Below, piece by piece: positions 734-15,951 of a DNA stretch of 64,000 nucleotides (the first letter of the stretch is position 1; every line of letters begins with the position of its first letter). This stretch comes from Brevundimonas sp. GTDB taxonomy: Bacteria; Pseudomonadota; Alphaproteobacteria; Caulobacterales; Caulobacteraceae. The position numbers and the translations under genes are program-made. Below the pieces are notes generated by a model. The model was not told where the DNA came from and did no database searches. It worked only from the letters and a program-made list of their open reading frames with translations. The stretch lies in the NCBI RefSeq assembly GCF_013912005.1, contig NZ_JACESB010000011.1, forward strand, positions 18,484 through 82,483. The letters run 5' to 3'.

Positions 734-2317
734 ATGGCCATACACCCGCTGCCCGAGACGATCGCCGACTTGATGGCGATGGACCTCGCCGCCTTGCCGC
801 CGGAAGAGGCGTTGCAGGCGGCCTCGATCCTGATCGACCTCGGCGACGACGCCGGCGATGCGGCCGCGCTCGACCGGGCCGCCGGCGTCCTCGATTACCT
901 GCAAGCCCGTGGTGGCCTGCCGCCGGGGATCGATTGCCGCATCCACTACTGCCGCGCCAACATCTGGAGCGCCCGACGCAGGATCACCGGCGAGACGCAA
1001 AGCTGGGTCTGGAAATCGGACCTCATCGACGCCGAGCTGCTCGAACTGCGGCGCACGGTGGCGCACGCCGCCTTCCCCGAACTCCCCCCGATCGCGCGGG
1101 CGCAGGCCCTCACCAACCTCGGCAACGTCCTCAATCACATCGGCCGCTTCGTCGAGGCGATCGAGGCGTGGGATCGGGCCTTGGCCGGTGTCCCGAACTT
1201 CGGTATGGCCAACGGCAACCGCGGCCTTGGGCTGATCCATTATGCCAGCGGGCTCTACGACCCCGGCCATCGCGGCGTCCTGGTGCTCGCGGCGCGGCAC
1301 GCGCTCGAACGCACGACCGACCCCGACGTGCTGTGGGAGAGCCCCGGCCTCGAGCCCGCCCAGGCCCACTTCGCCCAACGCGCGGCCGAGATCGACGCCC
1401 ACTTCGATGTTCCAGCGATGTCGGCCGGGTTCGACCTCAACGGCCATTCGCTCGGCCGTGGCCGGCGCGAACGCGACTACCGCCGCTGGTGTCTCAACAA
1501 CCGCCTGTTCCTCAACCCCCTGAACGATGTCGGTCCTTACGCCATCGCCGCTAACGACGTCATGACCCTGCCGTCGCTTACCGTCCGGTTCGAGGACGGG
1601 CCAAGTCCGCCCCCGGTGATCCACTACTTCAACGTCCTGAAGCAGGAATACGCGAGCGCCCGCTACGCGCTTTTTGAGGGTCTGACGTCCGAGGGCGTCC
1701 ATTTCTCGGACCGCGAGGTGCTGCTCTACGACACCCTCGACTTCCCGGCCTTCGGCCACGGCGTCGAGCGCCTGAAGACCGCCTTCCGTAACGCCTATTC
1801 CCTGCTCGACAAGACCGGCTTCCTGCTGAACGCCTACCTGGGTCTCGGCCATGGCGAGCGGCAGGTCAGCTTCAGAAACCTGTGGTTCGAGACGCCAAAG
1901 GCCCGAGCTCTGCACCCCAAGTTCGACGGCGCCGCCAACTGGCCGCTCCGCGGCTTGTTCTGGCTGGCGAAGGACATCTACGAGGACACCTTCCGCAAAG
2001 TCACCGAGCCGGACGCCCAGGCCCTCTATGAGCTGCGCAACCACCTTGAGCACAAGTTCGTCGGCGTGCACGACGACCAGCTGATGGCGGCTTCCATCTG
2101 CCCACTGCCCTCGCCCCCACTGGGGGTCTTCGACATCACCGCCACCGACCTCGCCGCCAAGACCCTTCGGCAACTGAAGTTGGCCCGGGCGGCCCTCACC
2201 TACCTTGCCATGGGCGTTTTCGCCGAGGAGCGCCGCCGCGAAGCCGAGAGCGGTGGCGGCCTCACCATGCCGATGTCGCTCTTCACGTGGAAGGACGCCT
2301 GGAAGCGGCGCGACTGA
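734..2317 (+). CDS. TPR-like protein with C-terminal HEPN domain (LA2681-like)
   Basis: This 527-residue protein has an N-terminal helical region resembling tetratricopeptide repeats (about residues 110-180, including ALTNLGNVLNHIGRFVEAIE). Its C-terminal part resembles the LA2681-type HEPN family. The key feature is RNHLEH at residues 435-440, which fits the HEPN R-x4-6-H catalytic motif with a polar residue after the Arg. Many HEPN proteins with this motif are metal-independent RNases used in toxin, abortive-infection and restriction systems. RNase activity here is inferred from the motif. The ATG at 734 is the first start in frame. No MNT antitoxin is adjacent; the nearest lies 5.6 kb away and is not in the same operon. 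The divergent KAP NTPase is the obvious partner candidate. Confidence 0.75.
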   Translation: MAIHPLPETIADLMAMDLAALPPEEALQAASILIDLGDDAGDAAALDRAAGVLDYLQARGGLPPGIDCRIHYCRANIWSARRRITGETQSWVWKSDLIDAELLELRRTVAHAAFPELPPIARAQALTNLGNVLNHIGRFVEAIEAWDRALAGVPNFGMANGNRGLGLIHYASGLYDPGHRGVLVLAARHALERTTDPDVLWESPGLEPAQAHFAQRAAEIDAHFDVPAMSAGFDLNGHSLGRGRRERDYRRWCLNNRLFLNPLNDVGPYAIAANDVMTLPSLTVRFEDGPSPPPVIHYFNVLKQEYASARYALFEGLTSEGVHFSDREVLLYDTLDFPAFGHGVERLKTAFRNAYSLLDKTGFLLNAYLGLGHGERQVSFRNLWFETPKARALHPKFDGAANWPLRGLFWLAKDIYEDTFRKVTEPDAQALYELRNHLEHKFVGVHDDQLMAASICPLPSPPLGVFDITATDLAAKTLRQLKLARAALTYLAMGVFAEERRREAESGGGLTMPMSLFTWKDAWKRRD

Positions 2318-3060: not shown

Positions 3061-3370
3061 TCATGTCCAGGCGATCACGGCGGTGACCTCGATCCCCAGC
3101 CGAGCTTCCGCTGGAGAGAGCACGGCGGCGGCCGGCGGGGCTGCGCCGAACGCCCGGCGATGCGCGGCGGAGATGCACGTGATCTCCGAAGGATTCGTCA
3201 CGTACACGACGGTTCGCACGACGTCCGCGAGCGTGGCTCCAAGAACCGTCAACGCTCTTCCAACCTCGCCACAGCGTCCGCGATCTCGGTTTCGAGATCA
3301 CGTCCCTCTCCCGTCGTCCCGACACGAAGATGAAAGAGTCGACCCGGCGACGGTTGAAATCGGTCTTCAT
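3061..3370 (-). pseudogene. Broken RidA (YjgF/YER057c/UK114) family gene
   Basis: Three consecutive minus-strand frames together spell a RidA-like protein: DSFIFVSG, then TTGEGRDLETEIADAVARL, then LTVLGATLADVVRTVVYVT, continuing to FGAAPPAAAV and IEVTAVIA at the C-terminus. The segments join by adding one base near 3318 and one near 3253, so two single-base deletions explain the break. Intact RidA proteins are about 125-130 residues and deaminate reactive enamine or imine intermediates. Here the N-terminus is also poorly conserved. So few lesions suggest either fairly recent inactivation or assembly errors. The neighbouring nitrilase remnant is more degraded, which favours genuine decay. Confidence 0.68.
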
Positions 3371-3473
3371 GGCGGGAGTGTTTAGCCCAAAGTGTCTCTA
3401 CGGGAGATCCTCACCTCGAGCCTCCAGGCGCGCTTCAGGAACGCAACCGGCCGTTAAAAGGTTGATGTGATAG

Positions 3474-3501
3474 TTGACCTGCGGCCGATAACTCGTAAGT
3501 T
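3474..3501 (+). promoter_or_regulatory. Candidate promoter of the wHTH/ParA/nitrilase cassette
   Basis: A TTGACC box at 3474-3479 and a TAAGTT box at 3496-3501 are separated by 16 bp, in the most A/T-rich stretch before the cassette. The placement puts transcription start near 3508 and leaves a short leader before the ATG at 3523. It is inferred by eye only. Confidence 0.4.
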
Positions 3502-3522
3502 CATCGCGTGAGAGAGAAGCCA

Positions 3523-4173
3523 ATGAGCATTTGGGCGATCATAGACGAAATCGCTGCAGCCCTGCGGGCTGCCGAGGACGCGACGGTTGACCGCAAGGTT
3601 GACGGTCTGCTGTCAGCCTTGACGGAAACGCTTGCTGACGCGCTTCCTAACGCAAGCCAGGCGGTTCTGCGCGAGGGGGCGCAGGCAGCGCGGCGCGCCT
3701 TCGACGCCGTCAGAGACGCTGAGACGGACTCCGCCGCCTTCGCGGCGGGACAGCTTGCCGCCGTGGCCGACGTTTTGGGTTTTGCGGCAGGGCGGGCGGC
3801 GGATGACGGGGCGTTGGCGATGGCGCAGCGAGCGCCTTATGCTTCCTTGCTGGCTGACCTTCGCGGAGGCGCACGCAGCAACCGGCAGCTTCGGCAATCG
3901 CTGGGGATCAAGTCGGAAGAGCACATGTGCCGGCTCCTGAAGGAGATGCGGGACGCCGACCTAGTTACGACCCAGCGGCGGGGACGCGAGGCCTACAATG
4001 CATTGACGCCGGTTGGTCGGTTGCTGGTCGAAACCCGGCTCGGCGTGGCCGAGCCGGCGCGCATCCCCCCGATCGTTGGCATGGGAAACCCATATCAGCT
4101 GACGGCTCTCCCGGTCGCCAATGATTGGGAGGACGGCAGTGCGCTGCCTCGCCTCGATGTCGGGACCGCCTGA
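3523..4173 (+). CDS. Winged-helix DNA-binding protein, first gene of a three-gene cassette
   Basis: The protein is about 216 residues. The N-terminal half is Ala-rich and predicted helical, and includes a run of charged helices that could dimerise. A winged-helix region follows at about residues 105-170: LLADLRGGARSNRQLRQSLG resembles helix 1 and the start of a recognition helix, and VTTQRRGREAYNALTP resembles the wing of MarR/ArsR-like repressors. I chose ATG 3523 over GTG 3508 because AGAGAAG lies just upstream as a plausible ribosome site and the GTG would leave almost no leader. The stop codon overlaps the next start as TGATG, indicating translational coupling. It most likely regulates its own operon, though it might instead act as an adaptor for the ATPase. 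No specific family is recognised. Confidence 0.72.
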   Translation: MSIWAIIDEIAAALRAAEDATVDRKVDGLLSALTETLADALPNASQAVLREGAQAARRAFDAVRDAETDSAAFAAGQLAAVADVLGFAAGRAADDGALAMAQRAPYASLLADLRGGARSNRQLRQSLGIKSEEHMCRLLKEMRDADLVTTQRRGREAYNALTPVGRLLVETRLGVAEPARIPPIVGMGNPYQLTALPVANDWEDGSALPRLDVGTA

Positions 4174-6407
4174 TGGCGGGCCGCGTCACCACCTTCTACT
4201 CCTTCAAGGGCGGGAACGGGCGGAGCATGGCCATGGCCAATGTGGCTTGGGCCTTGGCCACGAATGGCGAGAAGGTGCTCGCCATTGATTGGGACCTCGA
4301 AGCGCCCGGCCTGCACCGGTACTTCCACCCCTTTTTGCGGGATCCGGAGCAGTCCCAAGCTCGCGGCTTGGTCGATCACCTGTGGAACTACGTCCATTAC
4401 AGGACGCACGAGAAGACGCGGCGGGACCAGCTTGCCGAACTGGCCGACGCTTCGGTGATCGTGCAGGAGCTGGAGCTGCCCTTGCGCAAGAGCAAAGGGC
4501 TTCTGCACTTCATTGGCGCTGGCCGGCAAGACGACGAGTATAGCGCCAAGGTCGGCGGCCTCGACTGGGCGACGTTCTACGGCCGCTTCGGCGGCGAGGC
4601 TTTTCTCAACCAAATGATGGGTTGGGCGCGGTCGCGCTACACCCACATTCTCATCGACAGCCGCACCGGAGTGGCCGACACCGCAGGCGTGTGCACGACC
4701 CAGCTGCCTGACGGCCTTGTGCTTTTCCTAGTCTATAATCGCCAGAGCATCGACGGCACGGCGGCGGTCGCGAAATCGATCATGCGGACTCGGCGAGACC
4801 GAGATTTGGGCCCGATCGACATGCTGGTCTGTCCGTCCCGGGTCGAGGAGAGGGGCACGCTCGAGTCGGCGCGCCGCTATGCCGTCGGCAGACTCGCACC
4901 CGCACTGCAACGTCCGCGAAGTGTGTTAGCCCGCGAGCTGAGACGCAACGAGATCCGCCACTACCCCTGGTGCGCTTTCGAGGAGAAGCTGGCGGTCTTC
5001 GAGGACGAGCCTGACGAACGCGGCTCCCTGCTGGACGCAATGCATGTCCTTGCAGGACGGTTGGGGCGCAACCAAAGGGTACGGTCATTCGAACCAGTGA
5101 AGATCGATCCGGAAACCATCGCGCGCTATTGGCGCCGCGCTGCATTCGACGACCCGCGCCTGGCTGAGCTCGAGGAGCTGTCAACCTCGCCGGCGAGCGA
5201 GGTGGCGGCCAAACTCGCGCCTTGGCTTGAGGCGGCATTGGATCAACCCGAGGACCGCACGGATTGGCTGGCGAGCCTCGCTGAAGCCTGCGTGGAACGC
5301 TCGGGGTCCCTAGGGGACGCCATGGACCCCGACACGGTCGCCTTCCTGAGCGACGCGGGGATGGAGCTCGCCCGCATCGTCTATGAGCGCGAAGGCCGCG
5401 AGTTCCGGATCCGGTTCTCTGCAATCCTTCAAAATCGTTCAGACTATCTGCAGCAGATCGGCAACCTGGATGAAGCGCTGGCAAGCGCAGAGGAAGCTGC
5501 ATCCCTCTTGGGACGGGACAAGACGGAGCTGGCGCAGTGGCGACATGTCCGAGCTCTGGAACGGGTGGCTGCATTACAAGACGCGATTGGCGCCAGCGAG
5601 GAGGCGCTTCGCACCTATAGGGAGATGGTGACGCGATTTGACGGTCTTAGCCGCCGTGCATTGCCTTTGGGCGGCGAGCTCGAAGGGCTTCGCGCTCGGC
5701 GGCTGCTGGCTCAAGCCCTATTTGCGCGACGTGAGACCCCGGAGGCTCTCGCCGTCCTCGAGCCGGCCGTGCGCCGCCTGCCGGAACACGAGACGGTCAC
5801 CCGCCTTCGCGACAGCGCGGAAATCGCCACTGTTCTGGGGCTCTACGCCGAGATTGCCATGGCGATCGATGTGGACCTGGGCCGCCGCGCGGTGATGATG
5901 GCGCGGGGGCGGATGGATGCGATCAGTGAGACGCGCGGCGCGCGCGCCTCGCTCGAACGCCGCCTCGCTCTCGCCGAGGCTGAGGGCCTGCGTCGCACGG
6001 GCCGGCCGGACCAGGCGATGTTGGCGCTCGAGGCTCTGGACGACGAAGGTCGCCGAACCTTGGCGGTGCTCGAGAGCCGCGCCGCGATCCTTCTCGATCT
6101 GGGGCGGGCCGATGAGGCCCAGACGTTGCTGTTCGAAGCCATCTCTCGCACATCCGGCACCCCCTCGAACACGGTCCTCGACCTGATCGAGCGCGCGGTT
6201 CGGGCCACCGGCGAACCGTTGCTTCTGATGGAGCTGGCGCTAGGCCAACGCGGCGCACGGCGCAGCGCCAGCGAGAGCGCCGAAGTCCTGAAACTGCTGG
6301 AGCGGGCCGCCGCGTCCCTTCCCGCTGGCCGGCGCCGGGTCGTTCAGACGCTCAAGCGCCTCTTGAGCGCCGATCCGCATGGCCGCGCGTCAGAACCGGA
6401 CGCCTAG
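4173..6407 (+). CDS. ParA/MinD-like ATPase with long helical-repeat C-terminus
   Basis: This protein has 744 residues. The N-terminal SIMIBI-type ATPase domain carries a deviant Walker A, KGGNGRS (residues 12-18). It keeps the signature first lysine of ParA/MinD proteins but has Arg where the usual P-loop lysine sits. The switch segment DWDLEAPG (39-46) and a HILIDSRTG strand near residue 165 complete the nucleotide site. The remaining 400 or so residues are a helical array resembling TPRs (for example LDEALASAEEAASLLGRDK and AMLALEALDDEGRRTLAVL). This layout, an ATP-dependent switch fused to a protein-binding solenoid, is common in bacterial conflict and signalling NTPases. ATG 4173 overlaps the upstream stop; an upstream in-frame ATG at 4125 would overlap the winged-helix gene and is unlikely. 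The C-terminal nitrilase partner starts 2 bp after the stop. Confidence 0.82.
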   Translation: MAGRVTTFYSFKGGNGRSMAMANVAWALATNGEKVLAIDWDLEAPGLHRYFHPFLRDPEQSQARGLVDHLWNYVHYRTHEKTRRDQLAELADASVIVQELELPLRKSKGLLHFIGAGRQDDEYSAKVGGLDWATFYGRFGGEAFLNQMMGWARSRYTHILIDSRTGVADTAGVCTTQLPDGLVLFLVYNRQSIDGTAAVAKSIMRTRRDRDLGPIDMLVCPSRVEERGTLESARRYAVGRLAPALQRPRSVLARELRRNEIRHYPWCAFEEKLAVFEDEPDERGSLLDAMHVLAGRLGRNQRVRSFEPVKIDPETIARYWRRAAFDDPRLAELEELSTSPASEVAAKLAPWLEAALDQPEDRTDWLASLAEACVERSGSLGDAMDPDTVAFLSDAGMELARIVYEREGREFRIRFSAILQNRSDYLQQIGNLDEALASAEEAASLLGRDKTELAQWRHVRALERVAALQDAIGASEEALRTYREMVTRFDGLSRRALPLGGELEGLRARRLLAQALFARRETPEALAVLEPAVRRLPEHETVTRLRDSAEIATVLGLYAEIAMAIDVDLGRRAVMMARGRMDAISETRGARASLERRLALAEAEGLRRTGRPDQAMLALEALDDEGRRTLAVLESRAAILLDLGRADEAQTLLFEAISRTSGTPSNTVLDLIERAVRATGEPLLLMELALGQRGARRSASESAEVLKLLERAAASLPAGRRRVVQTLKRLLSADPHGRASEPDA

Positions 6408-6409
6408 TC

Positions 6410-7882
6410 GTGACACCCGGGGCCCTATTCGCCAAGCTTTGGATGCAGGTGAGTCCCCACGCGGGACCGATGGTCGCCGCGCCGTGGCCTGGCAAGGACG
6501 CCCGTGAATGCGCGACGCTCACCGACCTGCTCCGGAACGGGCGCGATGCGGACGTGCCCCCGGAGATCGAGATCTACCTTGAAGGGGGCAATCTTGGCTG
6601 CCCCTGCGATGCCGCGGCCGCCAATCTCGAGCAGCGTGCCTTCGTGGTGATGTGCGCCTTGGACGACGCCGCAATGGACATCCATCCGGCGATGCCCACT
6701 CGATTGGGCGGCGCCTCCGTCTCGGTCAATGCGATGCTGGCTCAGATGAAGCAGGCTCGCACGGCACGCGGAGAGTACGGCGAACATCAGGGGCGCCGAA
6801 CCCTTCCCAAGGGCCGGCTCGCAGCTCGTCGTGAGACCCCGGAGGCGGTCGCCGCGAGCGGCGCCAATCTGGAAACCCAATTCGACTATCTGACCGTGCT
6901 CGAGCCCCTACCGGAGCGTTTCGTGGTCGAGATCGAGGTGGTGCCGCCGAGACGGAGCCCGTTGCCCAATCCGCCATCCCGGATCGGTCTCGCCCCAATC
7001 GCCGAAGACGCAGACGATTTGGCGTTCACGGCGGCGGTCCGCCGTCAGCGGCCGTTCCTTGACGCCCAACCTCGCGATCCGCAACAGCTGCGGCTCAGGA
7101 CCACCGCAGCGGTGGAGGCGCTTCTCGATCGCGGGGCGGATCTGATCGTGCTGCCTGAGCTGGCTATTCCCAAGGACGCGCCGAGTGCATTGGCCCTGGC
7201 GCTGCGCGCGCGCCCGCCGCAGGACGGGCTGATCGTTTGTGGAAGCGCGCTGACCGAGGACGTGAGCGAGAACGGACTGCATTTCAACGAGGCGGTCGTT
7301 CTGGACGCGCGCGGCCGTGTACTGCTTCGTCAGCGCAAGGTCCACCCATTCAACATGGGCGTACAGCGCATGAGAGACTGCGGCGTGCCGTTCGCCGCCG
7401 GATACGAGAACTCTCCGCATATGGAGGACATCGAGCCCCATAGCGTAGTTCGCATCTGCGACCTCCATGGAGCCGGTCGGCTCATGGTCTCCATCTGCGA
7501 AGACCTTGAGCAGGAGACGCCCGGCGGCGTCGTTGCCCGAGCTGTTCGACCGGACTGGATGATCACGCCGGTGCTCGACGTCGGCCAGACTCTCGGCCGC
7601 TGGACCCACCAGCGCGCGATCGAGATCGCGCGGCGCACCGGGTCGCAGGTGGTGGTCAGCTGCAGCGCCACACTCACTGTTCGAGACAAAGGTTGGGCGA
7701 GCCTCGATAAGGCTCCGGCCGGCGGCCTCGGTCTCGGCCTTCTCTACGAGGGTGAGCGGCGAAGAGTGAGGATCGTGGACGCCTCGGAAGACACTTCGTC
7801 TCCGCGAGCCCTGGTCGTCGATTGGGACCCGGACAGCTGGAACGAGGATGAAGTCGGCGCACGGATGCCGCGTCGGCGTTGA
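6410..7882 (+). CDS. Large nitrilase-superfamily amidohydrolase with N-terminal extension
   Basis: This 490-residue protein starts at GTG 6410, two bases after the ATPase gene. Residues from about 205 to 470 form a carbon-nitrogen hydrolase domain. The catalytic triad appears intact by eye: Glu in DLIVLPELAIPK (about 250), Lys in RQRKVHPFNMG (about 310) and Cys in VSICEDLEQE (about 363). The first 190 residues are not recognised and contain a short CPCD segment. Ordinary nitrilases are 260-350 residues and stand alone or with metabolic genes. Here the enzyme is the last gene of a coupled cassette behind a ParA-like switch, in a defence-gene neighbourhood. That suggests a regulated effector that cleaves an amide- or nitrile-containing metabolite, possibly NAD-like, or a protein side chain. 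The substrate cannot be read from the sequence. Confidence 0.82.
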   Translation: MTPGALFAKLWMQVSPHAGPMVAAPWPGKDARECATLTDLLRNGRDADVPPEIEIYLEGGNLGCPCDAAAANLEQRAFVVMCALDDAAMDIHPAMPTRLGGASVSVNAMLAQMKQARTARGEYGEHQGRRTLPKGRLAARRETPEAVAASGANLETQFDYLTVLEPLPERFVVEIEVVPPRRSPLPNPPSRIGLAPIAEDADDLAFTAAVRRQRPFLDAQPRDPQQLRLRTTAAVEALLDRGADLIVLPELAIPKDAPSALALALRARPPQDGLIVCGSALTEDVSENGLHFNEAVVLDARGRVLLRQRKVHPFNMGVQRMRDCGVPFAAGYENSPHMEDIEPHSVVRICDLHGAGRLMVSICEDLEQETPGGVVARAVRPDWMITPVLDVGQTLGRWTHQRAIEIARRTGSQVVVSCSATLTVRDKGWASLDKAPAGGLGLGLLYEGERRRVRIVDASEDTSSPRALVVDWDPDSWNEDEVGARMPRRR

Positions 7883-7950
7883 CGGATGGAAACGCCGAGA
7901 GTTGAGAACCTGGTTGAGCCATCGGCCGCCGCCTTTAGCCGGAGCCATAG

Positions 7951-8262
7951 TCAGAACACCCAGATCAGATCAGCTTCGATCCTGCGGGCCATCCCACTCG
8001 AGAACGTCCGTCGCTCGACTAGGTCAAGCCGCGTTCCCAATGCATCTGCGATATCGAGGTATATCTGTCCCTGATCGAAGGCATCGAAGTCTGCGTCAGG
8101 CGCCAGACCAAAAGCCACCTCGACATCCGAACCTACTGTCGCCTCGTCCCGGGCCACCGATCCGAACAGGTAGAGGTGGGACACGCCTTCCCTTCTCAGG
8201 GCCTGCTCCATGCTGCTGAGCTTCGCCAAGGCTTCATCGCGACGCATGAAGAAATAGCCCAT
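7951..8262 (-). CDS. Minimal nucleotidyltransferase (MNT-type antitoxin-like), orphan
   Basis: This 103-residue protein contains LFGSVARDEATVGSDVEVAF, the minimal nucleotidyltransferase signature GSxxR followed by SDxD. The usual second acidic residue of the D-x-D pair is Glu here. Members of this family typically pair with a HEPN toxin and inactivate it by AMPylation, with the two genes adjacent. No HEPN gene adjoins this one. It lies 81 bp downstream of hsdR on the same strand, and the nitrilase cassette ends 68 bp away and converges on it. ATG 8262 is used; an ATG five codons in (8247) is an alternative. Function could be antitoxin, remnant of a toxin pair, or an accessory to the restriction operon. 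Confidence 0.75.
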   Translation of the reverse strand: MGYFFMRRDEALAKLSSMEQALRREGVSHLYLFGSVARDEATVGSDVEVAFGLAPDADFDAFDQGQIYLDIADALGTRLDLVERRTFSSGMARRIEADLIWVF

Positions 8263-8343: not shown

Positions 8344-11300
8344 TCAGCCCGCGCCACCCCGCGCCCTCAGCGCTTCATAAAGCTGCCCCGGCCCCAGCAG
8401 CGCGTCCTTCAGGCCGTCCTGTATCCTCGGCGACTCCAGCGCCTGTTTGCTCAGGCTGTTGTGCGCCACGAGGGCGTCCATGATGGCGTCGAGAAGCTCC
8501 TTGCCGAGGGTCGGGGAGCTGGCGAACTGGGCCTTGGTGTTGTTGCTGGCCTGCTGGATCAGCTCGTCGGATTCCAGCAGCTTTCCCTTGAGCACCTGGT
8601 TCACATAGACGAGCTGGTCGCTGTCCGTCGTGTCCGCGCCGAACAGGTCATTCACCCGCGCGATGATTTCGTCGAGGAGCGCCTTCTCCTTCTCGTGGAT
8701 GCCGCCTGAGCCCGTCTCGGACATTCCCGGCAGCTTGGGCGCATCGCCCGCCGCATAGGTCAGGTCGCGCTTGCCCTCGTTCTTCAGGGTGTGGTGCGTC
8801 AGCTTGATGCCGGTCAGGTCGACGCCTTCCCGCTCGCGACCGAAGACCAGCAGCGGCAGCAGGCGGCGATAGAAGATCGCCCGCTTTTCGACGTCGGTGT
8901 TGCCGTAGTCGATGATCTGGCTGAGGAAGCTGTAGAGCCGCAGATAGGCGCCCATGTCGCTCTTGAAGAGCTCCAGCGCCCCCATGTGGTCGCGGGCGTC
9001 CGCTTCACCCTGGGCGTTGCCGCTGGCCGTCGCCGTCGTGAGAGCCTGTCGGGCTCCGTTGAAAGCCTTGAGGATACGATCCGCGACCGGCTCCAGTGCG
9101 GAGATCAGCTGCCCCTGCGTGGCCTTCGGATCGAGCTCGACCTTGACCACCCGCTCGACGTCGAAATCGTCGTAGTGGCCGGCGGCGTCCAGCTTGGCGC
9201 GCAGGTCGAAGATCAGGTTCGGGTCGGTCGCGCTCTCCAGCTCGGCCGTCTCGAAATAGGTCCGGAAGGCCGCGAGGACCTCCTCGGAGCTGTTCACGAA
9301 GTCGAGGATGTAGGTCGTGTCCTTGCCGAGGTGTGACCGGTTCAGGCGCGACAGGGTCTGCACGGCCTGGATGCCGGCGAGGCGGCGGTCGACGTACATG
9401 CCGCACAGTTTTGGCTGGTCGAAGCCGGTCTGGAATTTGTTGGCGACCAGCAGCAGGTGGAAGTCCGGGCCGTCGAAGGCCTCGCGGATATCCCGTCCCT
9501 TCAGGCCGGCGTTGAGCTCCTTGCTCGTCTCGGTGAAGGGCTCCGCGCCTGAGTCCTTGTCATTCACCTCACCCGAGAAGGCGACCAGGGTCCCGAGCCA
9601 ATAGCCCTTCTCCTTGATGTATTTCTGGATCGCCAGCTGCCAGCGCACGGCCTCGATCCGGCTGCCCAGCACCACCATCGCCTTGGCCTTGCCGTCCAGC
9701 AGCGGTTGGACGTTCTCGCGATAGTGTTCGACGACGATCTGGACCTTCTGGCTGATGTTCCAGGGGTGCAGCTGCACCCACTTCATGATCGCCTTGTTGG
9801 CGGCCGACTTCTCGACCTCCTTGTCGTCCCAGTCCTGGCCGTCGTGAGCGAGGCGGAAGGCCAGCTTGTAGGGGGTGTAGTTCTTCAGCACGTCGAGGAT
9901 GAAACCCTCCTCGATCGCCTGGCGCATCGAATAGACGTGGAAGGGCGTCGGCAGGCCGTCGTCGCCCTTGCGCCCGAACAGCTCCATCGTCTTGGCCTTG
10001 GGCGTGGCGGTGAAGGCGACGTAGGTGATGCCCTTGTCGTCCGCGCGCCCGGCCATCTTGGCCGCGAGAATATCCTCGTTGGAGATCTCGCCCCCGTCGG
10101 CCAGTTCCGCGGCCTCGGCGGCCGACAGCATCTCCTTCAGCTTGGAGGCGGCCTCGCCCGTCTGGCTGCTGTGCGCCTCGTCGGCGATCACGGCGAAGGC
10201 CTTGCCCTCGGTGGCCGCCAGCTCCTGCACGGCCTCCAGCGCGAAGGGGAACGTCTGGATGGTGCAGACGATGATCTTCTTGCCGGCCGCCAGCGCCTTG
10301 GCCAGCTGTCCGCTCTTGGAGCCGCTCTCGCTCTTGATCGTCTCGACCACGCCGGTCGTTCGCTGGAAGTCGAACAGGGCCTCCTGCAGCTGGCTGTCGA
10401 TGACGTTGCGGTCGGACACGACGATGACGCTGCTGAACAGCTTCCTGTCCTGGGCGTCGTGCAGCTCGGACAGGAAATGCGCCGACCAGGCGATGGAGTT
10501 GGTCTTACCCGACCCGGCCGAGTGCTGGATCAGGAAACGCCCGCCCGGACCCTCCTCCAGCACCTTGGCCGCCAGCTTCCGCGTCGCGTCCAGCTGATGA
10601 TAGCGGGGGAAGATCACGCCGGTGATCGCCTTCTTGGCGTCCCGCCGCGTGACCAGGAAACGCCCGAGGATCTCCAGCCAGCTGTCGCGCTGCCAGACCT
10701 GCTCCCACAGATAGGCGGTCGGGTGCCCGCCGGTCCCGATGGGGTTGCCCTTGCCGCCGTGGTCGCCCCGGTTGAACGGCAGGAAGCGCGTGGCCGGGCC
10801 TTCCAGCCGCGTCGTCATCGCCACCTCGCGGTTGCTGACCGCGAAATGGACCAGCGCGCCGCCGGGGAAGGACAACAGGGGCTCGATCCCCTGCCCCTTG
10901 GGCTTCGGATTCCGGTCGAATTTGTACTGGTCGATGGCGTCCTGAAGACTCTGGGTGAAGTCGGTCTTCAGCTCGGCCGTCGCGACCGGGATGCCGTTCA
11001 GATAGAGGACCAGATCGAGGCAGTTCTCGTTGGCGGTCGAGTAGCGCACTTGCCGCACCACGCGCAGGCGGTTGGCCTGGTAGCGCGCCGTGATGTCGGG
11101 GTTCATGCCCATGGCCGGTTTGAACTGGGCCATCGCCAGCCGTCCCTTGGCGCCCACGATGTCCATTCCATTGCGCAGCACGTCCAGCACCCCGCGCTCG
11201 TCCAGCGACTTGCGCAGCCGGTCGGCGAGGACGGTCTCCGCATTGGCGCCGTGGGTCTTGGACAGGGCCTCCCAGGTCGCGGGCTGGGTCGCCTGAACCC

Positions 11301-11436
11301 AGGCGGTCAGGTCGGCGGGGAACAGGGCGCGGGCGCGATCGTGGCCGGCGGCGTCGCCGGGCGCATGCAGCCAGCCGTGGGCGGCGAGGTGCGCGCAGAT
11401 CTCGTCCTCGAAGCTGATCTCTTTGTGGACGCTCAT
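8344..11436 (-). CDS. hsdR: Type I restriction endonuclease subunit R
   Basis: This 1030-residue protein has the usual HsdR layout. An N-terminal PD-(D/E)xK nuclease core includes LYLNGIPVATAELK near residues 143-157. A superfamily 2 helicase motor follows, with Walker A HSAGSGKT near residue 310, the DEAH motif in VIADEAHSSQ, and the TATP motif in VAFTATPKAK. Helicase motif VI-like LSRLNRS is visible further on, followed by the C-terminal HsdM/S-binding region. Type I enzymes use ATP hydrolysis to translocate DNA and cut distant from an unmethylated target. The gene is last in the operon, 20 bp after the GIY-YIG gene. All key motifs are present, so the enzyme looks intact. Confidence 0.96.
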   Translation of the reverse strand: MSVHKEISFEDEICAHLAAHGWLHAPGDAAGHDRARALFPADLTAWVQATQPATWEALSKTHGANAETVLADRLRKSLDERGVLDVLRNGMDIVGAKGRLAMAQFKPAMGMNPDITARYQANRLRVVRQVRYSTANENCLDLVLYLNGIPVATAELKTDFTQSLQDAIDQYKFDRNPKPKGQGIEPLLSFPGGALVHFAVSNREVAMTTRLEGPATRFLPFNRGDHGGKGNPIGTGGHPTAYLWEQVWQRDSWLEILGRFLVTRRDAKKAITGVIFPRYHQLDATRKLAAKVLEEGPGGRFLIQHSAGSGKTNSIAWSAHFLSELHDAQDRKLFSSVIVVSDRNVIDSQLQEALFDFQRTTGVVETIKSESGSKSGQLAKALAAGKKIIVCTIQTFPFALEAVQELAATEGKAFAVIADEAHSSQTGEAASKLKEMLSAAEAAELADGGEISNEDILAAKMAGRADDKGITYVAFTATPKAKTMELFGRKGDDGLPTPFHVYSMRQAIEEGFILDVLKNYTPYKLAFRLAHDGQDWDDKEVEKSAANKAIMKWVQLHPWNISQKVQIVVEHYRENVQPLLDGKAKAMVVLGSRIEAVRWQLAIQKYIKEKGYWLGTLVAFSGEVNDKDSGAEPFTETSKELNAGLKGRDIREAFDGPDFHLLLVANKFQTGFDQPKLCGMYVDRRLAGIQAVQTLSRLNRSHLGKDTTYILDFVNSSEEVLAAFRTYFETAELESATDPNLIFDLRAKLDAAGHYDDFDVERVVKVELDPKATQGQLISALEPVADRILKAFNGARQALTTATASGNAQGEADARDHMGALELFKSDMGAYLRLYSFLSQIIDYGNTDVEKRAIFYRRLLPLLVFGREREGVDLTGIKLTHHTLKNEGKRDLTYAAGDAPKLPGMSETGSGGIHEKEKALLDEIIARVNDLFGADTTDSDQLVYVNQVLKGKLLESDELIQQASNNTKAQFASSPTLGKELLDAIMDALVAHNSLSKQALESPRIQDGLKDALLGPGQLYEALRARGGAG

Positions 11437-11456
11437 CGTTTCCCCCCGGCTCGCTG

Positions 11457-12353
11457 TCAGCCAGCCAGCTGTGCCGCTTCCCAGTCTTTGTAGGTCTGGC
11501 CGTCCGGCGTCTTCCAGGCCGTCGTCCCTTGGGCCTGCCGCCCGTAAACGATGGCAGCGGCGGCGCTTGGCGAACTAAACGCATAGTTCTCGGCGAAGAC
11601 GCAGTGATCGCCGTTCAGAACCAGAACGCCGGAACGCCGCAGGTCGTCATGCAGACTAGCGTAGCCACTGGTCGCCTTCTCCTGACCTTCCCACGCGGCC
11701 CGCGCCTGTGACCCGGCCTGCACGACGAATTCGCCGTCCTCCAGAACGGCGACGGCCTTCAGCCCCTGCTTGGGATAGTCCAGTGTGAACCGGACGGCAG
11801 GCGTTGCGACGGGCGCGCTGGATGGGGCCGGGGCGGCGGGTCGTACATTCTGCACGAACATGTCGATGCGGACGGCCGGCAGGACCATGAAGAGGTAGTC
11901 GAGGAAGGCTTCCATGTTGGCCCGCGCCGACTCAGACAGCCCGGGACGCGGCGGCGTATTGCCGTTGTCCAGCGGCATGACGCCGACCTTGCGGGCCTCC
12001 TCGACCAGCCTGGATTCCAGGAATTTGGCGTGGGCCTTGTGCAAGTTGTTGGCGGCCGAGGTGACCAGCACGGCCGTCGTCCACCAGTCCTTGCCCGCCT
12101 CGTGGCTCCTCATGCGAGCGGCGATGTCCTCGCCCTCGCCGATATAGGCGAGCGGCTTTCCATCCCGCTCGCCCAGAAGCAGATAGACGCCGGTGAACGA
12201 CGACTGCGGCCGGGCCAGCGCCTCCTTCAACCGGGTGCGCGGGGTGACAAGGACATGGCCGGTCCAGTTGAACACCTCAGCCGTCAGCATCCCATCGGGC
12301 CGGCCATCGATGAAATACAGTTCAAGGGACCGACCCAGCACGCCAGCGCTCAT
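11457..12353 (-). CDS. GIY-YIG nuclease-fold protein with C-terminal DUF4357-like domain
   Basis: The protein has 298 residues. Near residues 52-85 it carries FTGVYLLLGE followed by AYIGEGEDIAARMRSH, which matches the GIY-YIG core including the conserved Arg of the following helix. The C-terminal 60 residues (ATSGYASLHDDLRRSG through WKTPDGQTYKDWEAA) resemble DUF4357. The architecture is seen as a lone gene linked to restriction systems. Its ATG overlaps the hsdS stop by 4 bp and hsdR follows after 20 bp, so it is an integral operon member placed between S and R. It might be a nicking accessory nuclease, a modification-dependent nuclease, or a DNA-binding factor. Whether all catalytic residues are present cannot be decided by eye. 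Confidence 0.83.
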   Translation of the reverse strand: MSAGVLGRSLELYFIDGRPDGMLTAEVFNWTGHVLVTPRTRLKEALARPQSSFTGVYLLLGERDGKPLAYIGEGEDIAARMRSHEAGKDWWTTAVLVTSAANNLHKAHAKFLESRLVEEARKVGVMPLDNGNTPPRPGLSESARANMEAFLDYLFMVLPAVRIDMFVQNVRPAAPAPSSAPVATPAVRFTLDYPKQGLKAVAVLEDGEFVVQAGSQARAAWEGQEKATSGYASLHDDLRRSGVLVLNGDHCVFAENYAFSSPSAAAAIVYGRQAQGTTAWKTPDGQTYKDWEAAQLAG

Positions 12354-13717
12354 GCCGCTTCCGCCTGTTCAGGGGCGAGACCACGCACGTCAATTTTGCC
12401 GGTGACGGCAGCGGAGATCAGGGCGGCGCGGCGTTCCAGCAGAAGGGAGATTGCTTTTTCAGCTTCTGACTCCAGAGTCGAAAACTCCTGAAGTTTCGCA
12501 TCAAGCCAGTTCAGGATTGTCGCCTGCTCGCTGGGAGGCGGCACCGTCATCAGCAGATCGCCCACATCACCAAGACTCAGTTGAATTTTGGTGCCGCCAT
12601 AGCCGCCCATTTCGAGCTGAGTTTTCCCGACACACGACAGAGTGACATAGGCGACCCACTTCGGAAGGAGCCGACCACCAGCTAGGCGCGCTAGAGCGAC
12701 GTGCTGACTCACAAATGCTGTCTCCAGTTCCGACGGAACGACGGCGACCGATCCAAGGAAAGCGGTGATAGAAAACAGTACATCGCCTGACTGGACACGA
12801 GTTCTTTCGCCTTCGGACCCAAGCGGGACAGCTACTCTTTGTATGTCTGCAAGGTCCAAATCAACGCGATCTCGCGTCAGATTTCCGATGCGAAGGAAGA
12901 GTGCTCCCTCATCCGCGTAGTGCTCTGCCCAGCCTCGCGATCCGCTGGTAAGAAACACCAGATTGCGCTTCAGCGGTACAACGTCCCAATGCGCCGGCAC
13001 CTCGCCGAGCCATCCGACGCCGGAGTCCTTCATCGGGTCGGCAGGGTCGAGGCCTTTGGTGACGGCGTGGGAGATGACGGCCTGCCGCTTCTCCTTCAGC
13101 AGTTCGATCAGTCGCCGCTGCGCCTCCACCAGCGCATCGATCTTGCCGGTCTCGCGGTCGAGGAAGGCGGCGACGGCGAGCTGTTCGGATTTCGGCGGGC
13201 AACAGACGAGTGTCGCGGCCAAGGGCTCCAGGTTCAGCGATCTGAAGGTCGCGCCGCCAATACTGCTTTCCCACTGGCAGACGGACGCCGAGGCACGAAG
13301 GGCCCAAAAAACGTAACGCGAGGATGCGTCGTCGTTAACCGCAATTCTCGCCGTCCCTTGGGTCAGGTTCGCACCATTAAGAGACGACGGAACCACCATC
13401 ACTTTTCCGAAGCTTGGCCCGATAGAGCAGACGATGTCGCCAGCCCTCACCGTACTTCGACGATACGCTGCGGCGATGTCCTCCGACGTCCTTAGCAGGT
13501 TGGTTTCGTCCCTGACGCCGGACTCTTCTGACATGTCAGCCGGGCGGATGTAAGGAACGCCGCCATCGATGTCGGGGCCTGCCTGGACTATCCCGTAGGT
13601 GATTGCACGGTACGGATCGACTAAGCGGCTCAGTTTCAGAACTTTCCAGTGTGCTGGCACCTCGCCCAGCCACTCGACTCCGCTGTCCCGATAGCTCCCG
13701 TACTTCGGCACGCTCAC
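12350..13717 (-). CDS. hsdS: Type I restriction specificity subunit S
   Basis: This 455-residue protein shows the internal duplication typical of HsdS. Each half begins with a similar segment: [19 protein letters not shown] near residue 10 and [20 protein letters not shown] near residue 235. Each then continues into a target recognition domain and a conserved spacer helix ([19 protein letters not shown] in the first half and [19 protein letters not shown] in the second). It therefore recognises a bipartite DNA target. The ATG overlaps the hsdM stop by 4 bp, and its own stop overlaps the GIY-YIG start by 4 bp. The target recognition domains are the part most likely to differ between strains. 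Confidence 0.95.
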
Positions 13718-15549
13718 GCCGCCAGCCCCTCGATCATCGCCTTAATCCGGTCGGTGACGGCCAGCAGGTCGGCGTCGATCTCGGCCAGGTCACGCGGCGG
13801 TTCGAACACATAGAAGTGCCGGTTGAACGGGATTTCGTAGCCGACCTTCGTCTTGCTCTCATCAATCCAGGCGTCGGGGGCGTGGGGCAGGACCTCGCGC
13901 CGAAAATAGGTTTCGACGTCCTCAGCGAGCGGCACATTCTCAGTGTCGCGTAGGGCGCTGTCTGGCATCAGCTTGCCCTTGGCCTTGCCTTTCTGGCCCA
14001 CCACCGGCCGCCCCTGATCATCCAGCAGGGGCCGTTCGACCGTGATGGTGCGATAGCCGAAGGCTTCGTTGTCGAAGATGCGAGACAGCGGCTGCAGCCT
14101 GACCTTCCCGCCCTCGGGCGCGGCGGGCGGGGTCTCACCCTCGACCACCACTTCGCGGGCGACGACCTTGCCGTCGGCGTCGGTGACCGTCGCCAGCTGG
14201 GCCGCCTCGAAGCCGCCGAACAGGCGCGTCACGACAGCAATGTCGTCGTCGGACATCTCGCGCCGCTTGGAGCCAAGGCTCTTGCGCATCTTCTTCCAGA
14301 AGACGCTGGCGTCGATCAGCTGCAGCTTGCCTTTGCGGTGCGCCGGCTTCCGGTTCGAGACGATCCAGACATAGGTGGCGATGCCGGTGTTGTAGAACAT
14401 GTCGGTCGGAAGGGCGACGATGGCCTCGACCAGATCGCTCTCCAGCAGATAGCGCCGGATCTCGCTCTCGCCCGAGCCCGCGCCGCCCGTGAACAGGGGC
14501 GAGCCGTTCAGGACGATGCCGAACCGGCAGCCGCCTTCCGACGCCGGCCGCATCTTCGACAGCAGGTGCATCAGGAACAGCAGCGAACCGTCGGACACCC
14601 GCGGCAAACCCGGCCCGAATCGGCCGTTGAAGCCCTGTTGCTCGTGCTCCTGACGGACGACCTTCTCGACCTTCTTCCACTCCACGCCGAACGGGGGATT
14701 GGACAGCATGTAGTCGAACTTGCGGGTCGGGTGGCCGTCGTCGGACAGGGTGTTGCCCGGCGTGATGTTGGCGACGTCCTGACCCTTGATCAGCATGTCC
14801 GCCTTGCAGATGGCGTAGGACTCGTCGTTCAGCTCCTGGCCGAACATGGTCAGGCGCGCGGTCGGGTTCAGACCCGCCAGATAGTCCTCGGCCACCGACA
14901 GCATGCCGCCGGTGCCGGCGGTCGGGTCATAGATGGTGCGGACCACGCTGGGCTTCGACAGCAGGTCATCGTCCTCGACGAACAACAGCGACACCATCAG
15001 CTTGATGACCTCGCGCGGGGTGAAATGCTCCCCCGCCGTCTCGTTCGAGAGTTCCGCGAACCGCCGGATCAGCTCCTCGAAGGCGAGGCCCATCTGGTGG
15101 TTGTCGACCGAGCCGGGGTGCAGATCGATCCGGGCGAATTTCTCGGCCACCTGGTACAGCAGGCCCGCCTTGGCCAGGCGGTCGATCTGGGTCGCGAACT
15201 CGAACCGCTCGAAGATGTCGCGAACTGCCGGCGAGAAGGCCTGGATGTAGGCATACAGGTTCTGGGCGATGTGGTCGGCGTCGCCGATCAGCTTCGCCAT
15301 GTCCATCGGCGAGGTATTGTAGAAACTCTGCCCCGCCGCGCGAAGCAGGAACGGCTCGGGGTTCAGGCCTTCGCCCGACCGCTTCTCGAACTCCGCCAGC
15401 ACCGCGGGCTTGGTCGCCGCCAGCACGCAGTCCAGCCGGCGCAGAACCGTGAACGGCAGGATCACCTTGCCGTAGTCCGACTGCCTGTAATCGCCCCTGA
15501 GCAGATCGGCGACCGACCAGATAAAGGCCGACATGGACTGATGATTCAT
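13714..15549 (-). CDS. hsdM: Type I restriction-modification DNA methyltransferase subunit M
   Basis: This 611-residue protein is an N6-adenine methyltransferase. The SAM-binding motif [10 protein letters not shown] lies near residue 210 and the catalytic NPPF motif in [13 protein letters not shown] near residue 285. An N-terminal HsdM helical domain precedes these ([20 protein letters not shown], then [11 protein letters not shown]). The C-terminal region pairs with HsdS. A strong ribosome site GGGGAG sits about 7 bases before ATG 15549. It is the first gene of the hsdM-hsdS-GIY-YIG-hsdR operon and has a plausible promoter at 15700-15728. Confidence 0.96.
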
Positions 15550-15728: not shown

Positions 15729-15951
15729 TTGCCACCCAAGCGCGGACTCTCTGTCCGCCACCGGCCTCTGGCAGGTACCGCCACTTGCCGCGGTCTGGGT
15801 ATGCCTGCCGGAGCCGCGGCGCGCGAGGCCCTCATCCTTTCGAAGGGCTCGCGCAAGCCCCCGATCCCGCGCCATCGCACGCTTGCCCCGGCCGCGAGTG
15901 TATGGCGGGGCCGGCGCGCAGGCCGAGGCCGTCGCCACGGCGCGAGTCCGG

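Follow-up and report, generated by a model that had tools for sequence, protein, structure and literature searches.

A conserved operon of a winged-helix-like protein, a KGGxGR-motif ATPase and a stand-alone nitrilase: a candidate conflict module in Brevundimonas

What would an enzyme of the nitrilase superfamily be doing directly behind a ParA/MinD-like ATPase, among genes of defence type? The question is raised by a 64,000-nucleotide stretch of Brevundimonas sp. contig NZ_JACESB010000011.1 (assembly GCF_013912005.1), hereafter the window, in which three consecutive genes encode a winged-helix-like protein, an ATPase with a TPR-like tail, and a nitrilase. These three genes, which we call the triad, are a conserved, co-inherited operon. 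On balance, comparison with related loci leads us to favour the view that they form a mobile intracellular conflict module, probably anti-phage and of the abortive-infection type, in which a variant of the KGGVGR ATPases would act with a stand-alone nitrilase effector.

3523..4173, + strand: gene 1, winged-helix-like protein, 216 residues (221 from an alternative in-frame GTG at 3508)
4173..6407, + strand: gene 2, KGGxGR ATPase with TPR-like tail, 744 residues
6410..7882, + strand: gene 3, nitrilase, 490 residues, start codon GTG

A conserved, co-inherited operon

The original prediction described the genes as translationally coupled, and both features on which it relied are present: genes 1 and 2 overlap in a TGATG, and 2 bp lie between genes 2 and 3. 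It also proposed looking for the three genes together in other genomes, where we find that the same order does recur. Searching 72,556 plasmid records with tblastn, we obtained nitrilase relatives that are full-length in two Rhizobium plasmids (41-42% identity) and partial in ten Azospirillum records, two of which were opened. One Rhizobium plasmid (L012) carries a complete triad, and in the other (L013, 7299-11996) an IS21-type element splits the ATPase gene and leaves genes 1 and 3 open. When a single genome of each species was scanned, two further Rhizobium loci came to light (L016 and L017; 2 of 109 pattern matches confirmed), whose listed open reading frames are identical to each other and whose surroundings, a ParB-like gene and repABC, are those of L013. 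The triad is rare, as at E 1e-6 the nitrilase profile picks out only 4 of the 390 genomes in the window's family. Three of these, the window, G830 (L065) and G1236 (L115), hold all three genes; the fourth, G775 (L066, 1395-4224), has a Mutator-family transposase inside the nitrilase gene, and neither the ATPase nor gene 1 was detected on its 4.9-kb contig. A second family, that of G425, was picked by guess as possibly Rhizobium-like and gave no match in 297 genomes, an uninformative zero. The totals are thus six loci with three open genes, one with a split ATPase and one broken fragment, and we count five genomic contexts, with L013, L016 and L017 taken as one. As insertion sequences have broken triad genes in L013 and L066, the data suggest that the module can be lost.

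In the five triads with an intact ATPase that were measured (window, L012, L016, L065 and L115), intergenic gaps range from -4 to +5 bp, and the three proteins diverge in parallel. Identities for genes 1, 2 and 3 are 39, 44 and 42% between the window and L012, 69, 60 and 59% between L012 and L016, 61, 56 and 57% between L065 and L115, and 20, 29 and 26% between the window and L065. Nonsynonymous divergence (dN) is below synonymous divergence (dS) in all nine comparisons, with dS infinite in three of them; the proportions of differing sites (pN 0.18-0.43, pS 0.66-0.77) place synonymous sites near saturation. The triad is under purifying selection, and the recurring gene order together with the nine dN/dS comparisons takes the operon beyond chance.

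The predicted proteins and the exchange of partners around the ATPase

The first 300 or so residues of gene 2 form a ParA/MinD-like ATPase domain. It scores 147 bits (cut-off 90; E 6e-43) with the NCBIfam model NF047398, "KGGVGR-motif variant AAA ATPase", and matches the PADLOC candidate-defence model PDC-M28B at 3.6e-25. The ATPases of L012, L065 and L115 also exceed the NF047398 cut-off well. Residues K12, R17, D39, D41 and D162 are identical in all five aligned triads, and the KGGNGRS loop with arginine (Arg17) at the customary lysine position reads as originally described. The long helical-repeat tail fared less well: TPR matches are present, and every one falls below its Pfam cut-off, so that the solenoid assignment is weak. 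Gene 2 is predicted to be a switch and sensor. A ParA-type partition or division ATPase was considered and set aside, as the family models favour NF047398 and the operon partners are a winged-helix protein and a nitrilase, with none of ParB type; three plasmid copies of the triad nonetheless adjoin repABC. Among the other models, Pfam AAA_31 and CbiA fall narrowly under their cut-offs, MipZ scores 20.8 against 20.7 bits, and the MinD equivalog models of NCBIfam are far from being reached.

Over residues 208-365 gene 3 scores 34.2 bits with Pfam CN_hydrolase, above the cut-off of 23.2 (E 2.3e-8), and Pfam recognises no domain in residues 1-190; both the intact catalytic residues and the unassigned N-terminus of about 190 residues stand as originally noted. 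E250, K310, E339 and C363 are identical in all five aligned triads and are kept in a seven-row alignment that includes relatives lacking an ATPase; E339 is what we take to be the second glutamate of the tetrad, from the spacing in Nit2. In a profile search of solved structures a formamidase is nearest (E 4e-6), with Nit2 and N-carbamoyl amino acid hydrolases also among the best matches. The L065 and L115 enzymes were placed in the family by similarity to the window protein (E 4.8e-28 and 5e-25). Gene 3 is predicted to be the effector.

To place the enzyme, a nitrilase tree was built from 33 of 43 assembled rows. Omitted were L083, L085, L086, L087 and L103 (wrong frame or no motif), L094 (redundant), L096 (unclear motif), and L068, L069 and L073 (excess divergence). 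The eight family members form their own clade with support of 100/100. A NadE-type glutaminase, suggested by an ICED motif, was rejected, because the NadE-like rows lie elsewhere in the tree and L065 and L115 read ICQD; the NadE-like, Lnt-like and amidase-like labels of the reference rows are the analyst's own motif readings.

A studied nitrilase of immunity is that of DRT1, in which the nitrilase mutation C1116A abolishes protection, tetramer assembly activates the enzyme, and the system acts by abortive infection on a substrate described as unknown, according to the available passages of PMC13275509. Membership of the triad in DRT1 was rejected, since Pfam finds no reverse transcriptase domain and the nitrilases form a separate clade. 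Two other proteins, L079 and L080, match the DRT1-nitrilase model with ICSEL or VCSEL replacing ICYDAT and are sister to the DRT1 rows in the tree. Separately, three of the omitted proteins (L068 6914-8776, L069 7137-8459 and L073 6939-8702) weakly match the C-terminal half of the nitrilase and have a CTLRS motif in common. The L069 protein precedes DndA/C/D-like genes and that of L068 lies near an HsdR-like gene, as read from sequence; neither Pfam nor PADLOC matches these two proteins.

Gene 1 is conserved across the triads and encodes a helical N-terminus followed by a winged-helix-like C-terminal half (about residues 107-171). The original assignment as a winged-helix protein finds matches, all of them below cut-off (Pfam 1e-3, NCBIfam 2.5e-4), and we regard gene 1 as a predicted regulator or antitoxin-like partner. 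An hhalign comparison with the gene upstream of the ATPase in L057 led no further (0.1%). On two Azospirillum plasmids a gene 1-like gene adjoins a nitrilase that has no ATPase (L014, 10918-11430, blastp E 2e-5; L015, 10897-11433, hhalign 80%), while the partner of a third such nitrilase (L049) shows insignificant similarity (hhalign 13%). The two plasmid pairs suggest that winged helix and nitrilase existed together without the ATPase, and this pair may be an older core that later recruited it.

The ATPase, for its part, is found with many partners. A plasmid search with gene 2 gave 13 records, of which 12 were opened, the remaining one (H19) being near-identical in coordinates to H18; two of the 12 loci are triads. 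In R. beringeri (L055) a TIR gene overlaps the ATPase gene by 4 bp, and the ATPase, 39% identical over 297 residues, has an FGE-sulfatase tail, while in S. chiapasense (L052) ATPase and TIR are fused. Caspase and SAV_2336 genes lie near the Pseudanabaena relative, an HEPN gene lies upstream of that of Calothrix with a type III restriction gene nearby, and hsdR lies near that of Nostoc. An MqsA-family gene immediately precedes the ATPase in R. phaseoli, R. gallicum and Massilia (checked with Pfam in R. phaseoli only), and in Polymorphobacter the partner is uncharacterised, HipA genes and integrases lying close by. Beyond the plasmids, G441 (L051, 6746-11834) carries an overlapping row of TIR, SLOG and a KGGTGR-ATPase-NACHT-FGE-sulfatase protein, a composite conflict operon; this is the only locus closely followed for the ATPase among the 71 of 398 genomes with a profile match. 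Since TIR, TIR plus SLOG, caspase, HEPN or MqsA-type partners accompany the relatives of the ATPase, the nitrilase appears to occupy the effector slot of these operons.

The available passages of PMC7159879 report MinD/ParA-like domains in conflict systems, where they are predicted to be inactive, as well as FGS domains. A Pfam scan of the three triad proteins finds none of the core domains of the systems covered there (vWA/MoxR, VMAP, AP-ATPase or caspase). The triad and its relatives do encode an NTPase (nucleoside triphosphatase), a sensor or solenoid and an effector together, with the effectors swapped, which is the pattern of an NTP-dependent conflict system. The proposal that a regulator, a switch with solenoid and an enzyme make up such a layout is thus supported, both by these immune-type partners and by the neighbourhoods of the triad.

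Neighbourhoods and the island in the window

Defence or candidate-defence genes adjoin the triad in four of the five contexts (window, L012, L065 and L115); the one control for this count is the window itself, island genes against genes beyond the att site. L012 has an FRG protein upstream and a 2-deoxyribosyltransferase, SIR2 and KAP (QatA-like, 4.5e-16) downstream. Around L065 are FRG, DUF3800, SoFic (2e-40), and integrase-like and resolvase genes. At L115 a divergently oriented DUF2971/PDC-S31 gene (4e-26) adjoins the triad, and JetA (7e-187) lies about 9 kb away from the nitrilase gene; IS110 and an integrase-like gene, the latter by a match below cut-off, are also present. Two distant lineages thus share an FRG-domain gene within a few kb on the upstream side of the triad (L012 7200-8816, L065 1749-3323). 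The fifth context is that of the ParB-like gene and repABC in L013, L016 and L017.

The window's operon is apparently carried by an integrase island of about 24 kb at a tRNA-Ser gene. The features are as follows, with C3 denoting coordinates on the contig:

C3:10145-10234: tRNA-Ser(GGA), upstream of the window on the same contig
C3:10382-11641: tyrosine integrase, upstream of the window
734..2317, + strand: TPR + LA2681-like HEPN protein (Pfam HEPN_LA2681, 1.6e-64)
7951..8262, - strand: MNT-type minimal nucleotidyltransferase (Pfam Polbeta/NTP_transf_2; PADLOC PDC-S09)
8344..15549, - strand: type I restriction-modification cluster (Pfam and PADLOC), made up of the next four genes
8344-11436, - strand: HsdR
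11457-12353, - strand: PDC-S14/DUF4357 protein
12350-13717, - strand: HsdS
13714-15549, - strand: HsdM
15747..15762 (= C3:34230-34245), no strand: likely right att site, a 16-bp copy of the tRNA 3' end (C3:10221-10236)

The cargo reads MNT, a 539-residue protein, HEPN_AbiU2, KAP, HEPN_LA2681-TPR, the triad, MNT, and HsdR/PDC-S14/HsdS/HsdM, so that the KAP, HEPN, MNT and type I restriction neighbours named originally are all there. PADLOC matches five of the six island genes scanned, whereas the four that lie past the att site give no match. The 16-bp repeat sits directly after hsdM, where the GC content climbs: the eight 2-kb bins up to 16 kb lie at 0.61-0.68, and the 24 that follow at 0.67-0.77. 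It is convincing chiefly by this position, because in the att search a 21-bp, 95% match to DNA just beyond the tRNA, at C3:51370, scores better. The right flank occurs in 1 of 60 other genomes (G1211), where the tRNA is absent at that place. With a short repeat, a better match elsewhere and no empty site found, the borders are likely only.

Two parts of the island deserve mention in their own right. The 539-residue protein (L048 14088-15707, on contig C3 upstream of the window), with MNT and HEPN_AbiU2 on either side, has no Pfam or PADLOC match, and the KAP NTPase with HEPN_AbiU2 and HEPN_LA2681-TPR (L048 15907-18521, window 734-2317) is possibly a second uncharacterised unit.

Proposed role, rival explanations and known systems

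If the triad is a conflict module, the TPR-like solenoid of gene 2 would sense an invader cue or protein. The KGGxGR domain would bind nucleotide, and with arginine in place of the P-loop lysine its hydrolysis would probably be slow or nil. By changing state or assembling, the ATPase domain might then release or assemble the nitrilase, whose Glu-Lys-Glu-Cys site would hydrolyse an essential amide or nitrile metabolite, or make a toxic product, and growth would stop. Gene 1 would repress the operon or restrain the effector. What the comparisons establish is the structure of the genes and their motifs, purifying selection, inheritance together, mobility, the neighbourhoods and the exchange of effectors around the ATPase; we infer the trigger, the physical complex, the substrate, the toxicity and the anti-phage effect.

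A number of observations weigh against a defence module of this kind. The ATPase-less relatives L014 and L015 (annotated) and L049 (read from open reading frames) have ordinary genes around them, which suggests that the role of the winged-helix and nitrilase pair need not be defence. In the repABC context the L013 annotation holds no defence system beyond a VapC/Phd pair about 10 kb off, and only two neighbours were scanned in L016; one of the 12 opened ATPase plasmid loci, in Tistrella, sits among urea transport genes, an ordinary context. The nitrilase family is joined to the DRT1 nitrilases and one other nitrilase at 81/81 only and does not lie inside them; the PADLOC DRT1-nitrilase model matches the window enzyme weakly (1.5e-5) and the other three triad enzymes tested not at all, and at E 0.01 the L065 and L115 enzymes give no match to Pfam CN_hydrolase. 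The arginine in the P-loop might signify an inactive domain. None of the 34 ATPase and 22 nitrilase pattern matches in viral contigs was confirmed, and no triad relatives were matched in phage records. Finally, the original prediction placed the genes behind one candidate promoter, a claim that is unconfirmed because a scan of positions 3200-8000 found no sigma-70 consensus site, other promoter types being outside such scans. It had also named consistent association with ordinary metabolic genes as the finding that would speak against a conflict role; this is not what surrounds the three-gene unit, and it is in part what surrounds the enzyme family, through the ATPase-less relatives.

Could the triad instead stabilise mobile elements without fighting phage? 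In such a toxin-antitoxin or addiction module the nitrilase would be the toxin, gene 1 a DNA-binding antitoxin and the ATPase an added checkpoint. The mobile contexts (an integrase island, repABC plasmids, and insertion sequence and integrase neighbours) fit this, as do the gene 1-like genes beside the L014 and L015 nitrilases, which may represent the older core, and the MqsA-family antitoxin that holds the position of gene 1 in related ATPase operons. We nevertheless consider it unlikely: the ATPase-less pairs examined are not on evidently mobile DNA, the third of them has no significant gene 1 similarity, the nitrilase, a large protein whose enzyme fold is complete, differs from the usual small toxins, and four of the five contexts have defence neighbours. 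Moreover, the insertion sequence in L013 split the ATPase, yet genes 1 and 3 remained open. A horizontally moved metabolic or signalling operon, with a regulated nitrilase or amidase for an environmental compound and a ParA-like ATPase for localisation or assembly, seems to us slightly less probable again. It would suit the formamidases, Nit2 and N-carbamoyl amino acid hydrolases that are the best solved-structure matches, and the dehydrogenase, NAD synthase and oxidase genes that adjoin the ATPase-less nitrilases. Its difficulties are that in the contexts read the triad has neither a transporter nor a catabolic gene coupled to it, that it has defence-type neighbours, and that the ATPase family recurs with TIR, SLOG, NACHT, caspase and HEPN.

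There is also the question of novelty. The matches to PDC-M28B and NF047398 could mean that the system has already been described under another name (PADLOC PDC-M28, or a published KGGVGR/TPR system), with the nitrilase as an unreported accessory. We think this very improbable, as no paper naming "KGGVGR" or "PDC-M28" was found, most subscription papers and all preprints being outside the scope of the literature search. Within the same scope no paper was found on a nitrilase in biological conflict systems or on a carbon-nitrogen hydrolase in phage defense, and papers combining nitrilase with abortive infection or defense island were DRT-related or off-topic, as far as titles, the beginnings of abstracts and passages go. 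The label of a candidate undescribed system is too strong all the same, because the NF047398 and PDC-M28B models exist, MinD/ParA-like domains are described in conflict systems in the available passages of PMC7159879, and a nitrilase effector is described in those of PMC13275509; what appears to be new is the triad with its stand-alone nitrilase.

Returning to the triad as a conflict module, its interest lies in the effector. Nitrilases are rare in immunity, with DRT1 the one studied case (PMC13275509, available passages). We are evenly divided on whether the triad represents a second nitrilase immunity, independent of reverse transcriptases, in which a stand-alone effector, governed by a KGGxGR switch and a TPR sensor, would take the slot held by TIR NADases in sister systems and stop cells by hydrolysing an essential amide or nitrile metabolite. 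A separate nitrilase gene with a separable switch should lend itself more readily to purification and assay than DRT1, a filamentous fusion, and what immune nitrilases cut could therefore become directly testable. Furthermore, the exchange of TIR for nitrilase around one ATPase family suggests a general role for the KGGxGR domain as an effector adaptor.

Among known systems, DRT1 (UG1 reverse transcriptase plus nitrilase), as far as the available text goes, resembles the triad in placing a nitrilase-superfamily domain with a helical-repeat region in a defence setting, whereas the triad is without a reverse transcriptase and encodes its nitrilase separately, with an N-terminal domain that belongs to this protein. 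The predicted Glu-Lys-Cys catalytic fold is common to the triad enzyme and the metabolic nitrilases (NadE glutaminase, Lnt, Nit2/amidases, formamidase), but the triad family lies outside the reference NadE-, Lnt- and amidase-like rows. The pairs of an MqsA-type gene and a KGGVGR ATPase on Rhizobium and Massilia plasmids likewise have a DNA-binding-protein gene directly upstream of the ATPase; their partner is of Xre/MqsA type rather than a winged helix, and no nitrilase follows. The KGGVGR-motif ATPases as a whole (NF047398, PDC-M28B, and the MinD/ParA proteins of VMAP/vWA systems in the available passages of PMC7159879) have the same ATPase domain as the triad, along with a short upstream operonic partner, a variable C-terminal sensor region and immune-type neighbours. 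Where these relatives carry TIR, SLOG, NACHT, FGE-sulfatase, caspase, HEPN or MqsA-type partners, the triad instead has a TPR-like tail and, behind it, a separate nitrilase gene.

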